From NCBI GenBank assembly GCA_015709495.1, contig CP054189.1:1860001-1924000 (forward strand): a stretch of 64,000 nucleotides of DNA, read 5' to 3'. Below, one piece after another: positions 5,574 to 14,640 of this stretch (its first letter is position 1; every line of letters begins with the position of its first letter). Made by a program: the position numbers and the translations under genes. Under the pieces are notes generated by a model. It was not told the DNA's origin and searched no databases. It saw only the letters and a program-made list of their open reading frames with translations. The DNA is from Chthonomonadaceae bacterium (GTDB lineage: Bacteria; Armatimonadota; Fimbriimonadia; Fimbriimonadales; Fimbriimonadaceae).

Positions 5574-6377
5574 GTGGCCCGCAAGCCCTCGTTGAGTCCC
5601 TCGAAGATCACGCTGTTCTTGGCGTGCAAGCTGAAGTACCGTTGGACCTACGTCGATCCGCGCGGGCGGGCGTTCTTCCGCGCCAAGAGCTACTACAGCT
5701 TCGGGACGACCCTGCACAGGGTCTTGCAGAGGTTTCACGATCCGGCCGACACGGACGTGGTGAGTGTGGAGCAGGCCGTCCAGGCAGTTCATCAGGCGTG
5801 GGTCTCTGCAGGCTACTCGGGCCCTGAGCAGGAGCAGGCTAAGCGAGAGCTTGGCGAACAGGCGATCCGGGACTACGTCGAAGCGCATCTCGCCGTGCCT
5901 TCGGAAGCCGTAACGGTCGCTCTGGAACGACTCCTGCAAACCGACATGGGAGCGTTCAGATTGCTGGGGCGAGTGGACCGGATCGACGAGTGGCCCGACG
6001 GCAGCATCGAGATCATCGACTACAAGTCGGGCCGGTCGAATGTGGAAGAAGCCGAGGTCCGGGGCGATCTGGCGATGAACTGTTACCACCTCTTGGTTCG
6101 AGAGACCTTTCCCGGGCGGCCGATCCTTGCGACGATCGTCGCCGTGAGAACCGGAAACAGGGCTACCGTCGGTTTTGCTCCCGATGATGCGGACCGCTTT
6201 GGCCAGGACTTGAGGGTACTGGGCGAAGAGATTCTGGGGACCGATTGGGAAGAGGTCGTCCCGGTGCGAATCCCCGCGTGCGAGACTTGCGACTTCGTGC
6301 CTCTATGCGCGCGTCATCCCGAGTTCGACATTTCGGGTCTGACGCTTTCACGGCGAATGAGCAACCGCGATGGCTGA
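5574..6377 (+). CDS. RecB-family PD-(D/E)XK nuclease-like protein
   Basis: A 267-residue stand-alone nuclease domain of the RecB/AddB/Cas4 superfamily. It starts with the family's SPSKITLFLACKLKYRW segment. The catalytic core is GRVDRIDE ... IEIIDYKSGR, giving the Asp-x(n)-Asp-Tyr-Lys signature, followed by a QxxxY-like helix (MNCYHLL). Near the end CETCDFVPLC, together with the N-terminal Cys, could ligate an Fe-S cluster as in AddB and Cas4. The start GTG 5574 (VARKPSLSPSK) is preferred because of the -10 hexamer just before it. Its 3' end overlaps the convergent M16 gene by 30 nt. Likely DNA repair; no cas genes are present. Confidence 0.85.
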   Translation: MARKPSLSPSKITLFLACKLKYRWTYVDPRGRAFFRAKSYYSFGTTLHRVLQRFHDPADTDVVSVEQAVQAVHQAWVSAGYSGPEQEQAKRELGEQAIRDYVEAHLAVPSEAVTVALERLLQTDMGAFRLLGRVDRIDEWPDGSIEIIDYKSGRSNVEEAEVRGDLAMNCYHLLVRETFPGRPILATIVAVRTGNRATVGFAPDDADRFGQDLRVLGEEILGTDWEEVVPVRIPACETCDFVPLCARHPEFDISGLTLSRRMSNRDG

Positions 6378-7532
6378 CTCCAGCCATTGCTTGGCAAGTT
6401 CCTTCGCTCGAAGCAATTCGATTCGGTCCATCCTCTCGACGAGAAGCCGCTCGAACTCCGCGTTGCCGGAATTCAGGAGCCAGTAGGCCCTGAGAAACGC
6501 CTCTTCTGCAGAAGTTCCTCGCTGGGGTCCCGGAATCCAAGCCCTGAAGAGGTTGGGTCCGATCCCCAAACTCAGCGCCGCCCGCGCTGAAGCCCTGGCG
6601 CGGTCGAGATCCGCTTCGGTCCAGCCTTCAACGGCGGCGATCAGCGCCTTTCTTGCCTCGGCCGATGCCTCTTGAGCGCTAGCGCCCCGAGCCCCCGCCC
6701 AGAGGATTCGAATCCGCATTGAATCCAATTCCGGCCAGAGCAACGCCTCTTGCCGGTAGCTGATGCCCAGCGCCTGCCTGAGCGTCCGGTGGAGTGACGC
6801 CGACTTCCCACCGCCCAGTAGGTAAGCGATTGCGCCGAGCGCGGCCGCATCGGGGCTCTCCAGTCGGACCGGGGGAAGCGCCAGTTCCCCTCCCTGAGCC
6901 TCTGGGAACCGAGATTCCGAGGCCTTAGTAACTGGGAATTCGAGGACGCGCTGGATTCGGCCTGAATACCACGGAAACGCCCTTTGCTCCCAAGCCGCCT
7001 TGGCTGCTCCAGGCTCAAACTTGCCCGCCACCGCCACCGCCACCGCTCCGGGCCGAACGAACTCGCGGTACAGGTCGGTGACGATTTCCAGGCTCATCCG
7101 ACTGGGGGCGGGTGGCACGGGGCGCAGGATCGCATCCCAAGGTTCCACGACCGCCCTGCGGGTCTTCGAGATCGCTTGCTGGAGCGACTCCTCCGTGAAC
7201 CTAGGCTCCATCAGGATCGACGCCGCCATCGACAGGGCGGTCGGGAGTTGGCTCGCCGGAAAGCTCATTCCGATCCGCAAGCAGTCCGGTCCAACCGCCG
7301 CAAAAAGGGGTTCGCCGGTTTGGGAAGCATAAGCCCTCAGCGTTGGGGCGGGATAGGTCTGGGTCTGGACGATCATGGATTGCGCAAGCGCGGGGATTGC
7401 GGCCTTGCGAAACTCCGAAAGGGAGGGCAACTTGATGCAAATCTGGACGGAGACGGTCTTCGCGTCGTCGAGGGGGACCTCGATCAGGGGAGGCGTCGAT
7501 GAGAGGAGAAGGAGCGGAACGGCCCAATTCAA
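6348..7532 (-). CDS. M16 peptidase-like protein lacking the zinc motif
   Basis: Second gene of an M16 (insulinase/pitrilysin-type) pair, 394 residues with a short hydrophobic signal-like N-terminus (NWAVPLLLLSS). The middle and C-terminal parts carry the M16 second-domain pattern, including AIAYLLGGGKSASLHRTLRQ and GISYRQEALLW. No HxxEH zinc-binding motif can be found, so it is probably the non-catalytic partner of the upstream protein, as in other two-gene M16 systems. Its ATG overlaps the upstream stop in an ATGA arrangement, so translation should be coupled. Its 3' end overlaps the convergent nuclease gene by 30 nt. Confidence 0.8.
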   Translation of the reverse strand: MNWAVPLLLLSSTPPLIEVPLDDAKTVSVQICIKLPSLSEFRKAAIPALAQSMIVQTQTYPAPTLRAYASQTGEPLFAAVGPDCLRIGMSFPASQLPTALSMAASILMEPRFTEESLQQAISKTRRAVVEPWDAILRPVPPAPSRMSLEIVTDLYREFVRPGAVAVAVAGKFEPGAAKAAWEQRAFPWYSGRIQRVLEFPVTKASESRFPEAQGGELALPPVRLESPDAAALGAIAYLLGGGKSASLHRTLRQALGISYRQEALLWPELDSMRIRILWAGARGASAQEASAEARKALIAAVEGWTEADLDRARASARAALSLGIGPNLFRAWIPGPQRGTSAEEAFLRAYWLLNSGNAEFERLLVERMDRIELLRAKELAKQWLESAIAVAHSP

Positions 7533-8701
7533 GGCTGTCCACCTCGAACCTCGACCCTTTGGTCGGCGCTGAAAGCGGCCCAGCCCTGCCGAAAGTCGGC
7601 GAGCGTCAGCCGGTCGAGTTGGCCGAGGATTTTCTCAGGGCTCATCCCAAACGCTCCGCTGGCCAGGTAGCCGCGCAAGAACGCCGAACTGGTAGGATCG
7701 GCGAGCTGTCGGCGCACCCATCGCCTCGCGAGGTCGACTCCCGCCTCAAAGCGCCGTGCCGCGGAGTCTGAGCTCGAATCCTCGGCGGCTCTCAGGAGTT
7801 CGGGCCACGAATCGGTCCCGCCGACCAAAATCAGCGAGTTCTCTGCCGAGGGCGTATAGATGAAGAAGCTCCCCGGCGAGTGTGCCGCGAGCGCGAGCCC
7901 GGCAGCGAGCGTCGCGGCAGCCTCTCGGGAATCGAAGCTGCCGGTTAAGGCCGCCAAGACTCCCCCATCCACTCCGGGCAAGAAGCCCTTCGCGGGCGCG
8001 CCGGACTGCCTTCGCTGGGGTGGTTCGGGCTTCCCTGGGGCGATCGGGGCCAGAGCGGATTTCGCCGCCTGTATCATCAATTCAGCGGGCTGAGGGCCAG
8101 CGAGCGAGATCGTGACCTTGCTCTGATCGCAAAGCTCCGAATGAAGCCTCTCCATGTCGGCAGGCGTCGCCCCTCGCAAAGCCTCTTCGCTGCCTTGGGT
8201 ATCGATCCCCTCTTCACCATAGGCGAGGAGCCATGCCTTCGACGAAAGCCGCTCCGGAACGCTCATCAAGGCTCGCTCATGTCGCAGGATTTCCAGTTCC
8301 TTTGCGAGGGCGGCGGGGGAAAACGCGCGAGGGCGAAGGATCTCCAGGAGGGCGTCCAGCGCAGCGTCGAGCTGAGCCGGAGCGCATTCGATTTCGAATT
8401 GGTTGGCGTCCCGAAACGTTCGCGCCCGCAAGGTCATGCCCGCGGATTCGAGGCGTATATCGAGATCGCCGTTGGGACCAGCCGCCGCCAAGTGCTCCCA
8501 CAGATGCCTCCACCCATGGTTCGCGGGCGATTCGGGCCAGCTTCGGGCCGAGAGTAGCAGTTGCGCGGAAGTTCGCTTCGCTTCAGGCAGGGAATGGGCA
8601 ACGAGAATGGCCCCCGTGGGAAGCACGGTTCGTAGCCAAGGGGAATCCTCTTGGGGCGCCGTGAACGTCCCCAAAGCCAACGCGGCCCACGCAACGACCA
8701 T
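7529..8701 (-). CDS. M16 family zinc peptidase (catalytic partner)
   Basis: 390 residues with a signal peptide (VVAWAALALGTFTA). The inverted zinc motif HLWEH (HxxEH) is present near residue 66, with a candidate third ligand Glu in KELEILRHE about 80 residues later. M16 enzymes cleave peptides inside a clam-shell of two halves, and the next gene supplies a motif-less homologue. It follows the FKBP gene by 2 nt and overlaps the next gene by 4 nt, so SDR, FKBP and both M16 genes can be one transcript. Likely periplasmic or outer-membrane associated peptide degradation. Confidence 0.85.
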   Translation of the reverse strand: MVVAWAALALGTFTAPQEDSPWLRTVLPTGAILVAHSLPEAKRTSAQLLLSARSWPESPANHGWRHLWEHLAAAGPNGDLDIRLESAGMTLRARTFRDANQFEIECAPAQLDAALDALLEILRPRAFSPAALAKELEILRHERALMSVPERLSSKAWLLAYGEEGIDTQGSEEALRGATPADMERLHSELCDQSKVTISLAGPQPAELMIQAAKSALAPIAPGKPEPPQRRQSGAPAKGFLPGVDGGVLAALTGSFDSREAAATLAAGLALAAHSPGSFFIYTPSAENSLILVGGTDSWPELLRAAEDSSSDSAARRFEAGVDLARRWVRRQLADPTSSAFLRGYLASGAFGMSPEKILGQLDRLTLADFRQGWAAFSADQRVEVRGGQP

Positions 8702-8703
8702 GG

Positions 8704-9027
8704 TCAGCGGACTTCGAGCAGCTCGACTTCGAACTCGAGCGGGGTATTCGGAGGGATCACCCCTCCCGCGCCGCGCTCTCCATAAGCCAGCGAACTCGGA
8801 ATGCTCAGAGTCCTCTTTCCGCCCACGCGCATCCCCGCGACTCCGAGGTCCCAGCCCTTGATCACTTGACCTGCGCCCAGCGTAAACGTGAAGGGCCCAC
8901 GTCCCACGCTCGAATCAAAAGTCTTTCCATCGAGAAACCGGCCCGTATAGTGAACGCTAATCGTCTTGCCAACGGTGGCTTCAACGCCGGTTCCTACCTC
9001 GACGTCGGTCGTCGTCAGTTCATCCAT
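8704..9027 (-). CDS. FKBP-type peptidyl-prolyl cis-trans isomerase
   Basis: A single FKBP domain of 107 residues that catalyses proline isomerisation during protein folding. The signature residues are intact: VHYTGRFLDGKTFDSS, FTLGAGQVIKGWDLGV, and the closing AYGERGAGGVIPPNTPLEFEV. There is no signal peptide, so it should be cytosolic unless a longer form exists. CATAAT ends 5 nt before the ATG, suggesting its own leaderless start inside the gene cluster. The two M16 peptidase genes follow closely downstream. Confidence 0.95.
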   Translation of the reverse strand: MDELTTTDVEVGTGVEATVGKTISVHYTGRFLDGKTFDSSVGRGPFTFTLGAGQVIKGWDLGVAGMRVGGKRTLSIPSSLAYGERGAGGVIPPNTPLEFEVELLEVR

Positions 9028-9032
9028 GCCTC

Positions 9033-9038
9033 ATTATG
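9033..9038 (-). promoter_or_regulatory. -10 hexamer of a probable leaderless FKBP promoter
   Basis: Minus-strand CATAAT, then GAGGC, then the ATG at 9027. The 5-nt spacing equals that at guaB and glyA. Confidence 0.5.
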
Positions 9039-9065
9039 AACGGGCTGGCGAGGGCCTGCCCGACC

Positions 9066-9809
9066 CTAATGGAAGTAGCTCGCCCCGTTGATATCGATCA
9101 CGACGCCGCTCAAGTATCGCGCCTCTTCCGAAAGCAAGAACCGGCAAGCGGCTGCGCAATCTTCGGGAGTCGCCATTCGCCCAAGAGGGATTCCGGCAAG
9201 GATTTCGCCGAGCCGATCCTCCATGCCTTCGCGCGCCATCGCGGTCTCCGTCCAGCCGGGCGCGATCCCGAAGAACAGTACGTTCTGCGAGGCGAGTTCG
9301 GCGGCGAGGCTCCGAGTCAGATTCGTCAGGGCCGCCTTGGAGGCCGCGTACGTCGCTGCGCCCGCCTCTCCCTTAAAGCCGACCCGGCTCGAGACGTTGA
9401 GAACCTTGCCCTCACCCTGGACGCGAAAATGGGGGATCGCGGCCCGTATGAGCCGAACCGGCGCTTCGAAGTTGACGGCAAAGGTCTTGCGCAGGTTGGT
9501 CTCGAAGACCGCCTCCGAAGCGCCCGCGAAGTCGAGCGGGAGATAAACGCCTGCGTTGTTGACGAGCGCATGGAGCGGCCCGTCCGCAACCACTTGGGCG
9601 AGAAGGGAGTCAGCGCGAGAGGGGTCCGAAAGGTCGGCGATGTAGCTGCCCGCAGCCTGATTCCCCACGGCGCGCTCGGACTCTTCGAGGTCCTTTCCCG
9701 GATGCGATCCGTGCAGCGCGACCTGCCATCCAGCTTCTGCGAGCGACCTCGCTATCGCCCTGCCGATTCCCCGAGACGAGCCTGTGACCAAGACACGCGA
9801 GCTACCCAT
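9066..9809 (-). CDS. Short-chain dehydrogenase/reductase (FabG-like)
   Basis: Classical SDR of 247 residues with a Rossmann cofactor motif TGSSRGIG at residues 9-16, NNAG at 84-87, catalytic Ser near 140, and Tyr154/Lys158 in YAASK. The TGSSRG glycine loop with following Arg favours NADP(H). It is similar to 3-oxoacyl-ACP reductases, but no fatty-acid synthesis genes are nearby, so the substrate stays open. TACAAT sits 6 nt before the ATG, suggesting independent leaderless transcription although the permease gene lies 21 nt upstream. Confidence 0.9.
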   Translation of the reverse strand: MGSSRVLVTGSSRGIGRAIARSLAEAGWQVALHGSHPGKDLEESERAVGNQAAGSYIADLSDPSRADSLLAQVVADGPLHALVNNAGVYLPLDFAGASEAVFETNLRKTFAVNFEAPVRLIRAAIPHFRVQGEGKVLNVSSRVGFKGEAGAATYAASKAALTNLTRSLAAELASQNVLFFGIAPGWTETAMAREGMEDRLGEILAGIPLGRMATPEDCAAACRFLLSEEARYLSGVVIDINGASYFH

Positions 9810-9815
9810 GCGGCC

Positions 9816-9821
9816 ATTGTA
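9816..9821 (-). promoter_or_regulatory. -10 hexamer of a probable leaderless SDR promoter
   Basis: Minus-strand TACAAT, then GGCCGC, then ATG 9809. The 6-nt spacing excludes a normal ribosome-binding site. Confidence 0.5.
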
Positions 9822-9830
9822 CTGGACGGC

Positions 9831-10643
9831 TCACATCCCGACGCCGGTGTAATACTTGAGCCCCTTGCGCCAAAGGACTTGGGAAACGGCGTAAATCACC
9901 ACGATCCAAACGGCCTGGATCATCAGCGTTTTGTGCGACTCCGGACCCTCCAGCTTGCCGATGAGGATCTCCGTCGGCGCCCCGGCTGTGTAGTAGAAGG
10001 GCATCCATTTCGATGCGCTCTGGGCCCAACCAGGAAGCAAGGAAAGAGGGAACAGGTACCCCGACAAGAACAGGTGAGGCACGTAATAAAGCTCGAAAAC
10101 GGCCATCGCCTCTTGCGTAAACAGCGCGATCATTCCCATCGCCATGACGAACACGAAGCTCACAAGGTGCCCCAGAACCATCGAGGCCCACAGTTCCCAC
10201 CCAAGGTAGACGGTAGCGCCTTCGAGGAAGCTCCGGTAGAGCGCAAGAAGCGCGATCAGGAACGGAACCGTAAAGGCCATGCGGATGCACCGCCACGAGA
10301 GGTTACGAAAGAAGGTGTACTGATAAAACGAAATCGGTCGGATGAGGTAGGTAGAAAAGATGCCCTCGCGTATCTCGATGGCGACTTCCCACATGATGTG
10401 GCTGTTGACGAACGATCCAAGGATCAGCATTCCGAGGTAGTAGAGGACGAAGTCGGAGGTTCTGAGTCCCGCGATGGGGCCGCCCGAGCTTGCCGCCGCC
10501 CACACGAGGGGCATGGTGATGGCCGTCGTAAGGTCCGTCAGGATCCAAATGATGCCGCTCGCGCGATACGCGATGCCGTCTTGCACGAAGATGGCAAATA
10601 GCGCCCACCACTTTCGAATCGCGACTCTGGCTCCAATAGGCAT
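9831..10643 (-). CDS. ABC-2 family transporter permease
   Basis: A 270-residue permease with six predicted membrane segments, matching the ABC-2 permease subfamily of PF06182 type. The conserved pattern includes the N-terminal amphipathic KWWALFAIFVQDGIAYR, the loop EIREGIFSTYLIRPIS, and LPGWAQSASKWMPFYY near the C-terminus. ATG 10643 is chosen because the preceding 36 codons are charged and unlike a permease. TAGAAT and TATAGT hexamers lie 10 and 15 nt before it. No ATPase or second permease is adjacent, so it must pair with subunits encoded elsewhere. Confidence 0.85.
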   Translation of the reverse strand: MPIGARVAIRKWWALFAIFVQDGIAYRASGIIWILTDLTTAITMPLVWAAASSGGPIAGLRTSDFVLYYLGMLILGSFVNSHIMWEVAIEIREGIFSTYLIRPISFYQYTFFRNLSWRCIRMAFTVPFLIALLALYRSFLEGATVYLGWELWASMVLGHLVSFVFVMAMGMIALFTQEAMAVFELYYVPHLFLSGYLFPLSLLPGWAQSASKWMPFYYTAGAPTEILIGKLEGPESHKTLMIQAVWIVVIYAVSQVLWRKGLKYYTGVGM

Positions 10644-10805
10644 TGCAGACGAGATTCTACTATACCGTCGCCAAGCACCTCGAGTGGCTCGCCAGGGGCC
10701 CCTCCGACGTTCACGCTTGCAGCCGACGCACAAAGGATGGCTGCTCGACACGAATAGGATACATCTATGTCAAGCATGAAAAACTCACCCATATTGGGAA
10801 ATCTG

Positions 10806-10814
10806 TGTTACACT
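10806..10814 (+). promoter_or_regulatory. Extended -10 promoter element before the MauE/DsbA-like gene
   Basis: TGTTACACT has the extended -10 form TGn plus a TACACT hexamer and lies 9 nt before ATG 10824. No good -35 is seen, as is common for extended -10 promoters. It argues against the in-frame ATG at 10767, which is upstream of it. Confidence 0.4.
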
Positions 10815-10823
10815 TCTTTCACG

Positions 10824-12041
10824 ATGCGAGGAAGAGGACGAGAGCATCGACCGATGAGCAACGCTCCGGAGGAACGCTCGCCATCTGCGCCCCCCCCAGG
10901 GAGTGAGCTTGTGGAGGGTCAACAGACCACCGCAGTACGCCGTCGGCCCAATCGTAAGGGAGCTTTGACCCTGTTTCCGCGGGGTCGTTCTTGGACAGTG
11001 AATCCGAGAATGTGGGTGGGAGCATGGGCGTGGATTCTGGTCTGTATTGCGCTCTGGGTTGCCGCAAGCCTGAAGATTCTGCGATTCGGGCTGTTTCTTG
11101 AGTATCTATCGAGCGTGACTCAGTTGTCGGCGCCTCTGCTGATCGTCGGCGCTTTGGGGCTCGTTGCGGCTGAACTCGGACTCCCCATTGCATCGCTAAG
11201 GCCAGGCTGGTTTCGGACCTGCAGTTTTCTGGCAGGGGGACTCTTTCTGGTCTTCGCCACGTTTCACTTCGTCCGCTGGGCAATCGGAGATCCGCTTCCG
11301 TGCGCTTGCTTCGGCGCGCTCGTGCCGTTGTCGGCGGCTCAGTTTGCCGCAGTTGATCTTGGACTCGCCGTGGCCGCGTTCGCCGCAGGTTCGTGCCTTA
11401 CGAAGCCGCAAATCGCAACCGACAAGAACCAGCGGTCGACTTGGTTCGCGCTCACGATGTGGACGGGCGCGGCCGCCCTCCTATGCTTGACGATGTTGAA
11501 GGTTGTAACGACCGCAACAGGGACGGCCACAACTGACTTTCGCCGGGTGTCGATCGATGCGCACGCGTTTGAATCTGGCCGGGCGGTCCTGCGTCAGGGG
11601 AACGTCCCGGGACGCCTCATTGTTGTTTTCGGAGACTATGAATGTCCCTACACGCGTAGCTTGTTGTTGAGTCCGGTTTGGGCACAGGTGCTGGCCGACG
11701 ATCGGATTACCGTTCAATGGCGCGAACTGCCCTTGACCAACCTCCATCCCCGCGCGCTTTCTCTCGCTTGTCTGTCCAAGAGGTTGTTGCTGCGCAGTGA
11801 GTTGCATACCCAGCAGGCCGAACTTATGGCGCTCGCCGAATCAGCCAATGGCCCATTGATGGCCGGCTTTCCCGCTGATGAGGTAGCAACACTTCAAGAC
11901 CTGGTGAAGCAGGATGTCGAGATTGCCCATCGATTGGGGCTCCGCGCAACTCCGCTCGTTCTTGCCGTTCGCGATGGAGCGGTCGTTCACGTCAGCGACT
12001 TAGAACACGCTCTTCGATTCTGTACAGGAGAAAAAACATGA
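10824..12041 (+). CDS. MauE/DoxX-like membrane protein fused to a DsbA-like thioredoxin domain
   Basis: 405 residues. After a basic 55-residue cytosolic N-terminus come four to five membrane helices with MauE-family features (AASLKILRFGLFLEYL and the CxCFG motif in PCACFGAL), then a fifth helix. The C-terminal 150 residues form a thioredoxin-like domain with VVFGDYECPYTRSLLL and a cis-Pro loop ATPLVLAV. MauE proteins help form disulfides in exported partners. Here the usual CPYC is CPYT, so only one active-site thiol remains. The stop overlaps the ATG of the Cys-rich peptide gene (ATGA), which makes that peptide the likely client. ATG 10854 is an alternative start. Lower GC than flanks. Confidence 0.7.
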   Translation: MRGRGREHRPMSNAPEERSPSAPPPGSELVEGQQTTAVRRRPNRKGALTLFPRGRSWTVNPRMWVGAWAWILVCIALWVAASLKILRFGLFLEYLSSVTQLSAPLLIVGALGLVAAELGLPIASLRPGWFRTCSFLAGGLFLVFATFHFVRWAIGDPLPCACFGALVPLSAAQFAAVDLGLAVAAFAAGSCLTKPQIATDKNQRSTWFALTMWTGAAALLCLTMLKVVTTATGTATTDFRRVSIDAHAFESGRAVLRQGNVPGRLIVVFGDYECPYTRSLLLSPVWAQVLADDRITVQWRELPLTNLHPRALSLACLSKRLLLRSELHTQQAELMALAESANGPLMAGFPADEVATLQDLVKQDVEIAHRLGLRATPLVLAVRDGAVVHVSDLEHALRFCTGEKT

Positions 12042-12397
12042 AAACTAGGAAACATCTCGTCATCGCCAGTTGCGCCGTTGCTTGTGCCGCAACTGCATTT
12101 GCCGCTTGCCCCGGACCTACAGCACCCCAATGGAACGGTCTAGTGGGCAAGTGCGTCCAGGGGTTTTGGATTAGATACTGCCAAGATACGGAATTGGACG
12201 TGGACGGTGGATGTCTGGGAAATACGCAGAACAACAAGTGCAATACGTCGCAGATGTCCGAGCCCAAGCTAGTCTATCACCCCCAGTACAGCGGACAGTG
12301 TACTCTTGACCAAAGTACAAACCCTTGCGTGTTTTGGTATCAGGATGGTTACATTTCCTATCACATTGGAAATCTCGACATGAGGTTTTACTGCTAA
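12038..12397 (+). CDS. Small secreted eight-cysteine protein
   Basis: 119 residues with a clear signal peptide (KHLVIASCAVACAATAFA, probable cleavage after AFA). The mature chain of about 96 residues has eight cysteines, the last being the C-terminal residue, and is rich in Tyr, Trp, Asn and Gln. An AGGAG ribosome-binding site lies 7 nt before the ATG, which overlaps the MauE/DsbA-like stop. An even Cys count beside a disulfide-forming protein suggests an extracellular disulfide-knotted product. I do not recognise the family. The following two genes encode anchored and pilin-like exported proteins. Confidence 0.75.
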   Translation: MKTRKHLVIASCAVACAATAFAACPGPTAPQWNGLVGKCVQGFWIRYCQDTELDVDGGCLGNTQNNKCNTSQMSEPKLVYHPQYSGQCTLDQSTNPCVFWYQDGYISYHIGNLDMRFYC

Positions 12398-12409
12398 TTT
12401 GGGCCTTCG

Positions 12410-13366
12410 GTGAATTGGACTTTCGGTAGCGTTCGAGTGATCCTCTACTGGCGAGTATTGGCATTCTTTGTGATCGCCTTTGCGGCGGTAGGTTATGCGC
12501 AAACGACACAGGGTGCCAACTGGCAGGTGCGCTTCAAGGTGGATTCTATACAGCCCGAGAGTCTGCATCTCGGTGAACTGACCATCGTTCATAAGGGTGA
12601 AAGGTGGCTTATCTTGTACAAGGGTCCAAAGTACGAGTTGAGTTGCTTGTATACTCCTGATTGGACGCTTTCTTGTGGTGCAAGATTGCCAACCGGGATG
12701 GCGTTCCTCCTTCCACCTCAGGCGACTGGACGGGTGCCTTTCGTCCCTCCGCTGTCCGAAGGTCTTCTTCCATGGGACTTGTACCCCGCGCCCGACCTCG
12801 CAACGAGGGGCGTCCAGGTGCAGGTGACGAACCTAGATGCAATCGCCGAAGCACCTCATCTGGTTGTGGAACCCGCCAGCATCCAGTGGCTGGAGTCCGG
12901 GCTGTCACCTCCGGTTCGGGAGGTCATAACCTTTCGAAACGGCGTAATCAAAGACGTATGGTTGTTCAGCGATTATCGTACCCATCAAGGCATGCATGTT
13001 CCCGGCCGCATCGAACGGCTGAAGCGCAAAGCCTCGGGAGTCGACATTCCATCGGACCAGCGGATTGTGTGGACGTTTGTGGCCTTCGAATCACCGTCGA
13101 AGCTTCAACTCGAAGATGCTGCGATTATCGCCAACGGTGCCGCGATTCAGGACAATCGCGACCCGTATCAACCTACCCACTTCGTTTTCGGGCACGTTGA
13201 AGGGCCGTTACTCGAACAGGCGTCGTACGCGGCCGAGGACACGCTTGACAGCCGTCAGAAGGAACAGGCTTCTCCCTGGTTCGCAGGCTTCGCGGCCGTC
13301 GTTGGAGCCTCCCTTGGGCTGGTGGCATCGAGAAAGGCAATCCAAACATTGTGGAGCGCAAAGTGA
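12410..13366 (+). CDS. Exported protein with C-terminal membrane anchor, weakly LolA-like
   Basis: 318 residues: an N-terminal signal (WRVLAFFVIAFAAVGYAQ), a beta-rich exported domain, and a C-terminal hydrophobic helix (FAGFAAVVGASLGLVAS) ending in basic residues. The pattern of alternating strands (ELTIVHKGERWLILYKG, REVITFRNGVIKDVWLFS) recalls LolA or outer-membrane lipoprotein-sorting folds, but this is a weak resemblance. The start is GTG 12410, with GTG 12437 a possible alternative. It lies 12 nt after the Cys-rich peptide gene and 10 nt before the pseudopilin gene, so all four genes are likely co-transcribed. Confidence 0.6.
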   Translation: MNWTFGSVRVILYWRVLAFFVIAFAAVGYAQTTQGANWQVRFKVDSIQPESLHLGELTIVHKGERWLILYKGPKYELSCLYTPDWTLSCGARLPTGMAFLLPPQATGRVPFVPPLSEGLLPWDLYPAPDLATRGVQVQVTNLDAIAEAPHLVVEPASIQWLESGLSPPVREVITFRNGVIKDVWLFSDYRTHQGMHVPGRIERLKRKASGVDIPSDQRIVWTFVAFESPSKLQLEDAAIIANGAAIQDNRDPYQPTHFVFGHVEGPLLEQASYAAEDTLDSRQKEQASPWFAGFAAVVGASLGLVASRKAIQTLWSAK

Positions 13367-13376
13367 GGATACGACA

Positions 13377-14009
13377 ATGAAAAGAACTCGAGCATTCACA
13401 CTAATTGAGATCCTAGTTGTAGTCGGGATTGTGGCGATACTCGCCGCACTCATTTTCCCTGCGGTCGCAAGATCGAAGAGAAGGGCCGTCGAAACCACTT
13501 GCATTTCGAATCTCAGGCAAATCGGCGTCGCTAATGGGCTTTACATGGTCGATTACAATGACCTCATGCCAGTTGACGTACCTGTGATTTGGGACTACAA
13601 CAAAGAATTCGTCGATCTGTTGGAGCCGTATGGCACGAAGCTGGAGCTATACGAATGCAAGAGTCGGTCCGATGGGTACCCGCGCCCTCATATCGACGTC
13701 AAATCCAGAAACGCAATCGTGTTCACTCGAGGTAACGACTTTCGGATTGTGTGGCCGGTCCTTCTTGGGACCAACTTTGTGTTTGCGTACTGTCATTGGC
13801 ACGGGCCAGACGGGGTAACTTGGCCCGGCGGCAAGGGGTTCATTCAGGCGGTGCGTGTGTCGGGCGAGGCGCAACGGATTCCCGCTGCCCAGATCGTCGT
13901 CCACGAGGACGATTGGGGCGGGTTCGGACCCGACGTCAACCCTAACTACTACCGGTGGTACCAGTTTCCGGGGGAGACGTTTCCGCCAGGGTTAGTCCAG
14001 GTCCCGTAA
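13377..14009 (+). CDS. Type IV pilin-like (pseudopilin) protein
   Basis: 210 residues with a textbook prepilin N-terminus: MKRTRAFTLIEILVVVGIV, where prepilin peptidase would cut before Phe (A-FTLIE), leaving Glu5 in place. Then CISNLRQIGVANGLYMVDYNDLMP, typical of the H/G pseudopilin class seen in Planctomycetes and Armatimonadota. The C-terminal domain is rich in Trp and Tyr, with two Cys (YECK and YCHW) that could pair. GAGGA lies about 8 nt before the ATG. Last gene of the cassette; it converges with rplE. Confidence 0.85.
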   Translation: MKRTRAFTLIEILVVVGIVAILAALIFPAVARSKRRAVETTCISNLRQIGVANGLYMVDYNDLMPVDVPVIWDYNKEFVDLLEPYGTKLELYECKSRSDGYPRPHIDVKSRNAIVFTRGNDFRIVWPVLLGTNFVFAYCHWHGPDGVTWPGGKGFIQAVRVSGEAQRIPAAQIVVHEDDWGGFGPDVNPNYYRWYQFPGETFPPGLVQVP

Positions 14010-14043
14010 ACCCTGTGGAAGGCAGTCGTCCGAACACGTCCTA

Positions 14044-14640
14044 TCAAGATTCGCGCAGGGGCAGGCCCATTTGCTTCAAGAACGCGCGGCCCTCTTCGTC
14101 GGTGCGGGCGGAGGTGCAAATGACCACGTCCATTCCTCGAATGCGGTCGAAGGTATCGTACGGGATCTCAGGAAACACAAGCTGTTCCTTGAGACCCAGA
14201 GAGTAGTTTCCTCGGCCGTCGAACGAATTCGGCGACAAGCCCTGGAAGTCGCGAATGCGAGGCAACACCACGGTACATAGCTTGTCGAGGAAGTGATAGG
14301 CGCGGTCGCCTCGCAAGGTCACCTTGCAGCCGATCTTCATCCCTTCGCGCAGCTTGAAGTTCGCAATCGACTTCTTGGCGGTCGTGATGACCGGCTTTTG
14401 CCCTGCGATCAGCGTGAGGTCGCGCAAGGAGTTCTCGAGGTTCTTGTCCGCCTTGTCGGGGTTGCCCGTACCCATGTTGATGACGATCTTTTCGAGCTTG
14501 GGGGCCTGCATGACCGTCGAGTAACTGAACTGCTGCATGAGGTTCTGGAGAACCTGCTCGCGATACAGTTTTTTGAGGCGAGGGTAGGGAAGCGCGGCGG
14601 CCTCACCTCCCGACGTTTTCTTAGATTCCTTCTTTGCCAT
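14044..14640 (-). CDS. rplE: 50S ribosomal protein uL5
   Basis: Binds 5S rRNA and joins it to the large subunit central protuberance. The 198 residues carry the uL5 core: [44 protein letters not shown], and [21 protein letters not shown] 20-residue Lys/Ser-rich N-terminal addition precedes the usual start. It is the last gene of this ribosomal run; the expected rpsN, rpsH and rplF are not downstream. The plus-strand pseudopilin gene converges instead. Confidence 0.97.

Follow-up and report, generated by a model that had tools for sequence, protein, structure and literature searches.

A 64,000 nt window of the Chthonomonadaceae bacterium genome was analysed here (assembly GCA_015709495.1, contig CP054189.1, positions 1,860,001–1,924,000, forward strand). 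At 10824–14009 it carries a cassette of four co-directional genes, A to D, whose open reading frames (ORFs), order and positions are as given in an original prediction made from the sequence alone. Gene A (10854..12041, + strand, with an alternative ATG at 10824) encodes a MauE–DsbA fusion membrane protein, assigned through PF07291 and homology to a counterpart in genome G170. Gene B (12038..12397, +) encodes an exported eight-cysteine (Cys) protein of 119 aa, assigned through G170 homology and shared Cys spacing. Gene C (12410..13366, +, GTG start) encodes an exported protein with a C-terminal membrane anchor, which is LolA-like only by its position and its relatives, and gene D (13377..14009, +) encodes a pseudopilin of 210 aa (PF07963). 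The spacing is as tight as predicted, with a 4 nt overlap (ATGA) of A and B and gaps of 12 nt between B and C and 10 nt between C and D. The low GC content is likewise confirmed, at 0.565 for the cassette and 0.500 for gene B, against 0.619 in the left flank and 0.604 in the right, and a GC content as low as that of the cassette is found in just 3.4% of window stretches of equal size. There was no match in Rfam or in a defence library, and promoter and terminator predictions are no more frequent than in shuffled sequence. Below, G numbers are genomes and L numbers loci, G000 being the genome of the window and G000b its second cassette.

The cassette is one case of a modular, recurrent and strain-variable gene set in the Armatimonadota. 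PF07291 and a profile of the cassette MauE proteins were run over 101 and 291 genomes and the neighbouring genes were then read; MauE served as the bait, since gene B diverges so rapidly that a protein search with it alone returned no convincing relative. A search of the relatives with gene C alone returned only noise. There are approximately 28 places in the phylum where a Cys-rich exported ORF lies beside MauE, DsbA or an anchored protein, and G036, G166 and G171 have three cassettes each. The window cassette is closest to that of G170, in which the gene order is identical and the products are homologous (A, 27% identity over 341 aa, 2e-29; B, 35%, 1e-12; C, 24% over 275 aa, 1e-22). At 21 other MauE loci, mostly in a rhodanese/DUF1573 context, a Cys-rich neighbour was seen in none. 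The Cys-rich exported protein, MauE or MauE/DsbA, and the anchored protein occur together far beyond chance, which supports this part of the original prediction. The four genes that it described are, however, one form of a larger module, which can also carry a C39 peptidase, a separate DsbA or a membrane protein of the Wzy_C or DUF2079 kind.

A tree built from 49 MauE proteins separates the cassette set from the non-cassette set by a single change, and the window MauE groups among the cassette proteins. The non-cassette set forms one side of a branch with a Shimodaira–Hasegawa-like approximate likelihood ratio support of 97; the deep branches within the cassette set are poorly resolved. Three extra MauE loci in the tree carry neither context label, one of which (G171c) has a DsbA, an eight-Cys protein, a LolA-like protein and a Wzy_C protein upstream of MauE. 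When 84,980 GTDB genomes were searched with a single, narrow MauE pattern, the only loci found were in the Armatimonadota and matched known places; the pattern was too narrow to show absence elsewhere.

The cassette also differs between close strains. Compared by blastn with G179 (locus L155), a genome of its own species, the window flanks are 98.3% and 98.7% identical on the two sides of a variable segment (10619..14045, no strand) bounded by the start of an ABC-2 permease gene and the stop of L5. In place of the roughly 3.4 kb that contain the cassette in the window, G179 has 72 bp, which indicates that the cassette has been gained or lost as a unit. In G001, of the same genus, a different ORF occupies the site. 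The second cassette of the window's own genome lies between fusA and tuf (L058 6164–9050; G000:C1 about 1988163–1991049) and comprises genes for a pilin, MauE, an eight-Cys protein, a LolA-like protein and a C39 peptidase; G179 has identical copies of its MauE, Cys-rich and LolA-like genes.

Several cassettes have neighbours with translation functions: rplE in the window (14044), fusA and tuf for G000b (L058), lepA in G018 and an S9-like gene in G163, the loci including L050 and L135. This adjacency could be due to chance, to an insertion preference or to shared strong expression. A group of two M16 genes and a short-chain dehydrogenase/reductase gene lies 1–4 kb to the left of the window cassette (group and cassette together, window 6348–14009) and adjoins the G010 cassette on the opposite side (L053 5066–10796), so that this neighbourhood is possibly a hot spot. 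In G170 (L143 3387–5405), a second unit of a 10-Cys protein, a LolA-like protein and a separate DsbA is in tandem, immediately upstream of the MauE–DsbA unit.

Gene B has ten Cys in total, two of them within the signal peptide and eight in the mature protein, as predicted, spaced C-14-C-8-C-10-C-8-C-19-C-8-C-21-C. Among the cassette proteins there are two Cys-spacing scaffolds. Type I, found in the window, G170, G018 and G171b, is roughly C-11/14-C-7/9-C-9/10-C-7/8-C-19/20-C-1/8-C-19/22-C, and type II, found at about 14 loci, is roughly C-3/5-C-5-C-15-C-8/11-C-6/7-C-10-C-13/15-C, with variants. The mature Cys count is eight in 19 of the 27 proteins counted, or in 20 with G018, where the crude signal-peptide cut of the script dropped the first Cys and the true count is eight; the remainder have 9–12. 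As a background control, none of 12 small ORFs with signal-peptide-like starts in 236 kb has eight or more Cys. The sequence is hypervariable on this fixed scaffold, and the mature proteins, of about 70–120 aa, are rich in N, Q, S, T and aromatic residues, with a net charge of zero or below in 26 of 27. What had been described as a secreted peptide is Cys-rich and, judged by its sequence, exported, but it is a small protein and not a short peptide.

No Pfam or NCBIfam family matches gene B, and five of the Cys-rich proteins have no NCBIfam match to NVEALA (TIGR04149) at E values up to 1. A plasmid search returned nothing matching gene B. Reading gene B as a lipoprotein, from the sequence FAAC, was rejected, as in relatives the first Cys lies at a variable distance from the end of the signal peptide.

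The MauE half of gene A matches PF07291 with E 9e-5 and 23.2 bits when searched as a single protein, which is below the Pfam cut-off of 27, and with 27.0 bits in the genome search (domain positions 3–124 of 128). It carries the redox motif PCACFG (11298..11315, +), of which the CxC would, from charge distribution only, be on the extracytoplasmic side; this CxC is retained in 23 of 25 cassette MauE proteins. For the DsbA-like half there is no Pfam match in the window protein, but the family profile (alignment A11) matches ScsC, DsbA and BdbD structures (1e-14 to 5e-7), and the fusion protein of G170 matches both PF07291 and PF01323. The cis-Pro loop is present in the window domain, as ATP at the invariant Pro column. 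Its active-site motif is CPYT (11643..11654, +), in which the first Cys is kept and the second is replaced by Thr. In the relatives in A11 the motif is CPYS in G018 and CxxC in G170, L144 and L136. The fusion proposed originally agrees with both family profiles, although the window protein, with CPYT, cannot act as a classical two-Cys DsbA.

The redox genes vary from cassette to cassette. Most of type II has MauE alone, while MauE is accompanied by a separate DsbA in G135a (L136) and G171c (L144), and is fused either to DsbA (the window, G170, G018 and, in degenerate form, G171b) or to a TlpA-like domain (G216, L149). The strongest argument for a redox function in the service of the client is this exchange of partners around a Cys-rich protein that is kept. 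In G113 (L137 4943–6232), a frame resembling a family 2 glycosyltransferase runs from upstream into the MauE ORF without a break, by fusion or read-through. In G141 (L212 3565–4336), the MauE gene is shortened beside a transposase-like ORF, and the LolA-like, C39 and DUF2079-like genes are still there.

Gene C was predicted to be an anchored LolA-like protein, and a C-terminal membrane helix agrees with the anchor. The window protein itself has no sequence match to LolA, its model is poor (predicted local distance difference test score, pLDDT, 37.8) because its relatives are too few, and hhalign against the type II LolA-like proteins gives a non-significant E of 0.03. It resembles these counterparts in position, signal peptide and anchor. 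The type II anchored proteins share a family profile (hhalign E 1e-17) and are predicted to have the LolA fold: the model has a pLDDT of 74, and 10 of its 11 top Foldseek matches in the PDB belong to the LolA superfamily, the other being a DUF1329 protein. The best E is 1.7e-7, with modest target-normalised TM-scores of 0.35–0.49.

Taken together, these features make it probable that the cassette produces and matures one small Sec-exported protein by means of dedicated redox enzymes. From its sequence, the gene B product would leave the cytoplasm by Sec and lose its signal peptide. By what is known of these families, its eight Cys would then be oxidised to four disulfides by the gene A membrane protein, through the extracytoplasmic DsbA-like domain and the MauE CxC, with the electrons passed into the membrane. 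As CPYT leaves a single thiol in this strain, it is likely either that the MauE CxC oxidises the client directly or that the DsbA domain acts like an isomerase or as a holding factor. Gene C, with one C-terminal helix as its anchor, may bind the folded product or hand it on, as the predicted fold of its counterparts suggests. Where there is a pilin, it probably joins type II secretion or type IV pilus machinery for export or display, and in the sister variants a membrane-anchored C39 peptidase probably trims a double-glycine-like leader outside the cytoplasm. The role of the product outside the cell would be compatible with either an effector or a surface component.

Several observations count against this interpretation. 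Within the window, the second Cys of the DsbA motif has gone, leaving no CxxC, and gene C has no demonstrable similarity to the type II LolA-like proteins. The DsbA domain of the degenerate G171b fusion likewise shows no CxxC, and in G130 and G131 (L147, L148) MauE is without both Cys of CxCFG (PANGFG), yet a Cys-rich client and a C39-like gene persist. The client is itself damaged in G131, by an in-frame stop (L147 about 6320), and in G133, by a frameshift (L141 about 6516–6923). Finally, the full-length MauE of G020b is in neither a cassette nor a rhodanese/DUF1573-type context, and LolA-like genes occur alone, with no Cys-rich neighbour.

The Cys-rich protein might be a bacteriocin-like weapon, or one resembling a ribosomally synthesised and post-translationally modified peptide (RiPP), released against competitors and with the anchored LolA-like protein as carrier or immunity factor. 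This is possible, if somewhat unlikely. The hypervariable sequence on a fixed Cys scaffold would fit, as would the several differing copies per genome in G036, G166 and G171, the presence and absence between strains, and a published pairing in Streptomyces candidate RiPP families of mauE with precursors of at least eight Cys, described in passages of PMC7794033. One branch also has a processing peptidase. C39 (PF03412) is downstream of the anchored protein at seven loci, of which G113, G000b, G163, G172 and G141 were tested (4e-13 to 2e-4) and G130 and G131 were read by eye. A double-glycine-like leader, for example LTLGEMKAAQGAG, is present immediately before the first Cys in G163, G172, G113 and G130/G131. 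With G130 and G131 counted once, the leader is present at four of the five independent C39 loci whose peptide can be read and at none of about 20 others (p about 4e-4); G000b has the peptidase with no clear leader, and the window cassette has neither. Against a weapon, the mature proteins are mostly acidic, and their size and mostly negative charge are unlike those of cationic lytic peptides. None of the cassettes was seen to contain an ABC exporter or a gene recognisable as conferring immunity.

A role in surface display, with the Cys-rich protein forming the tip or a side subunit of a filament of pilin type and being modified in some branches by a membrane glycosyltransferase-like protein, is more doubtful. 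Gene D has an N_methyl match above cut-off (PF07963, E 2.1e-6) and a GspG-like N-terminus, and a pilin is tightly linked at 6 of 28 loci and in the operon at one more (G113), an adjacency that exceeds the background given by 39 pilins per genome (p about 2e-6). The window's own genome has four secretins and several PilB/GspE-type ATPases. Wzy_C proteins are found in G170 and G171c, and a DUF2079 protein in G113 (tested with Pfam), with similar ORFs in G135, G130, G131 and G141. About three quarters of the loci, however, have no neighbouring pilin, and pilins are in any case abundant, with 39 in this genome; 79 pseudopilin genes have been reported in F. ginsengisoli (PMC4072686). As the pilin is optional, the export route through a pilin-like machine that the original prediction had suggested cannot hold for the cassettes in general. 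The linkage of client, redox and anchored proteins supports that prediction in part; its disulfide-stabilised peptide is here a small protein of about 80–110 residues.

A subunit of a periplasmic enzyme, disulfide-rich and matured in the manner of methylamine dehydrogenase, is very unlikely. MauE is established in the maturation of the multi-disulfide light chain MauA (cited in passages of PMC7794033), but no large-subunit or other enzyme gene recurs in the neighbourhoods read, and no Pfam family matches the client. That common genes have come together by chance scarcely deserves consideration, since, for all the 39 pilins of this genome and the LolA-like genes found elsewhere, the same sets occur in many genera and families, MauE splits cleanly by context and the G170 homologues of B (35%) and C (24%) are in unchanged order, recurrence having already refuted chance for A, B and C and left it for D only at loci without a pilin.

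Maturation of a small exported protein by dedicated redox enzymes is the reading preferred here. A broader proposal, which is itself rather unlikely, is that of a phylum-wide surface or secretion family built on a hypervariable disulfide-locked protein, with its own MauE/DsbA oxidase, a tethered carrier of LolA fold, outward-facing C39 trimming in some branches and dedicated pilin export or display. The cassettes would supply testable clients for MauE, of which few are known, and present a natural swapping of redox partners (MauE, DsbA, TlpA and fusions) around a constant kind of client. They suggest that C39 leader peptidases can act outside the cytoplasm on Sec-exported precursors. In the Armatimonadota, a phylum with few cultured members, the proteins would be an unmined family of disulfide-rich products if they are effectors.

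In the literature and family databases searched there is no description of the present gene combination or of a function for its Cys-rich protein, nor was NVEALA found in the literature searched. The closest published precedent is the decRiPPter set of candidate RiPP families from Streptomyces, in which a mauE homologue is beside a predicted precursor of at least eight Cys and MauE is proposed to act on the precursor; these are bioinformatic candidates, and the passages describing them mention no LolA-fold anchored partner, C39, DsbA fusion or pilin (PMC7794033). The Mau system likewise pairs MauE, with a conserved CxC, and a small exported protein that has several disulfides, with a DsbA- or TlpA-type partner in the role of MauD, but the cassette has no methylamine dehydrogenase subunit and its client is unrelated and hypervariable. 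As in DsbA/DsbB and the VKOR–thioredoxin fusions, gene A joins a membrane redox domain to an extracytoplasmic thioredoxin-fold domain, although its membrane half is MauE and its thioredoxin half has CPYT in place of CxxC. The type II anchored proteins share a predicted fold with the LolA superfamily, from which they differ in their C-terminal membrane helix and in having no detectable sequence similarity, the fold being predicted for type II only. The type II C39 branch resembles the processing of double-glycine bacteriocins in having PF03412 and an L(S/T)xxEM...G(G/A) leader, but here C39 stands alone as a protein anchored in the membrane, with a catalytic domain expected on the outer side, and the precursor is exported by Sec, with no ABC exporter.

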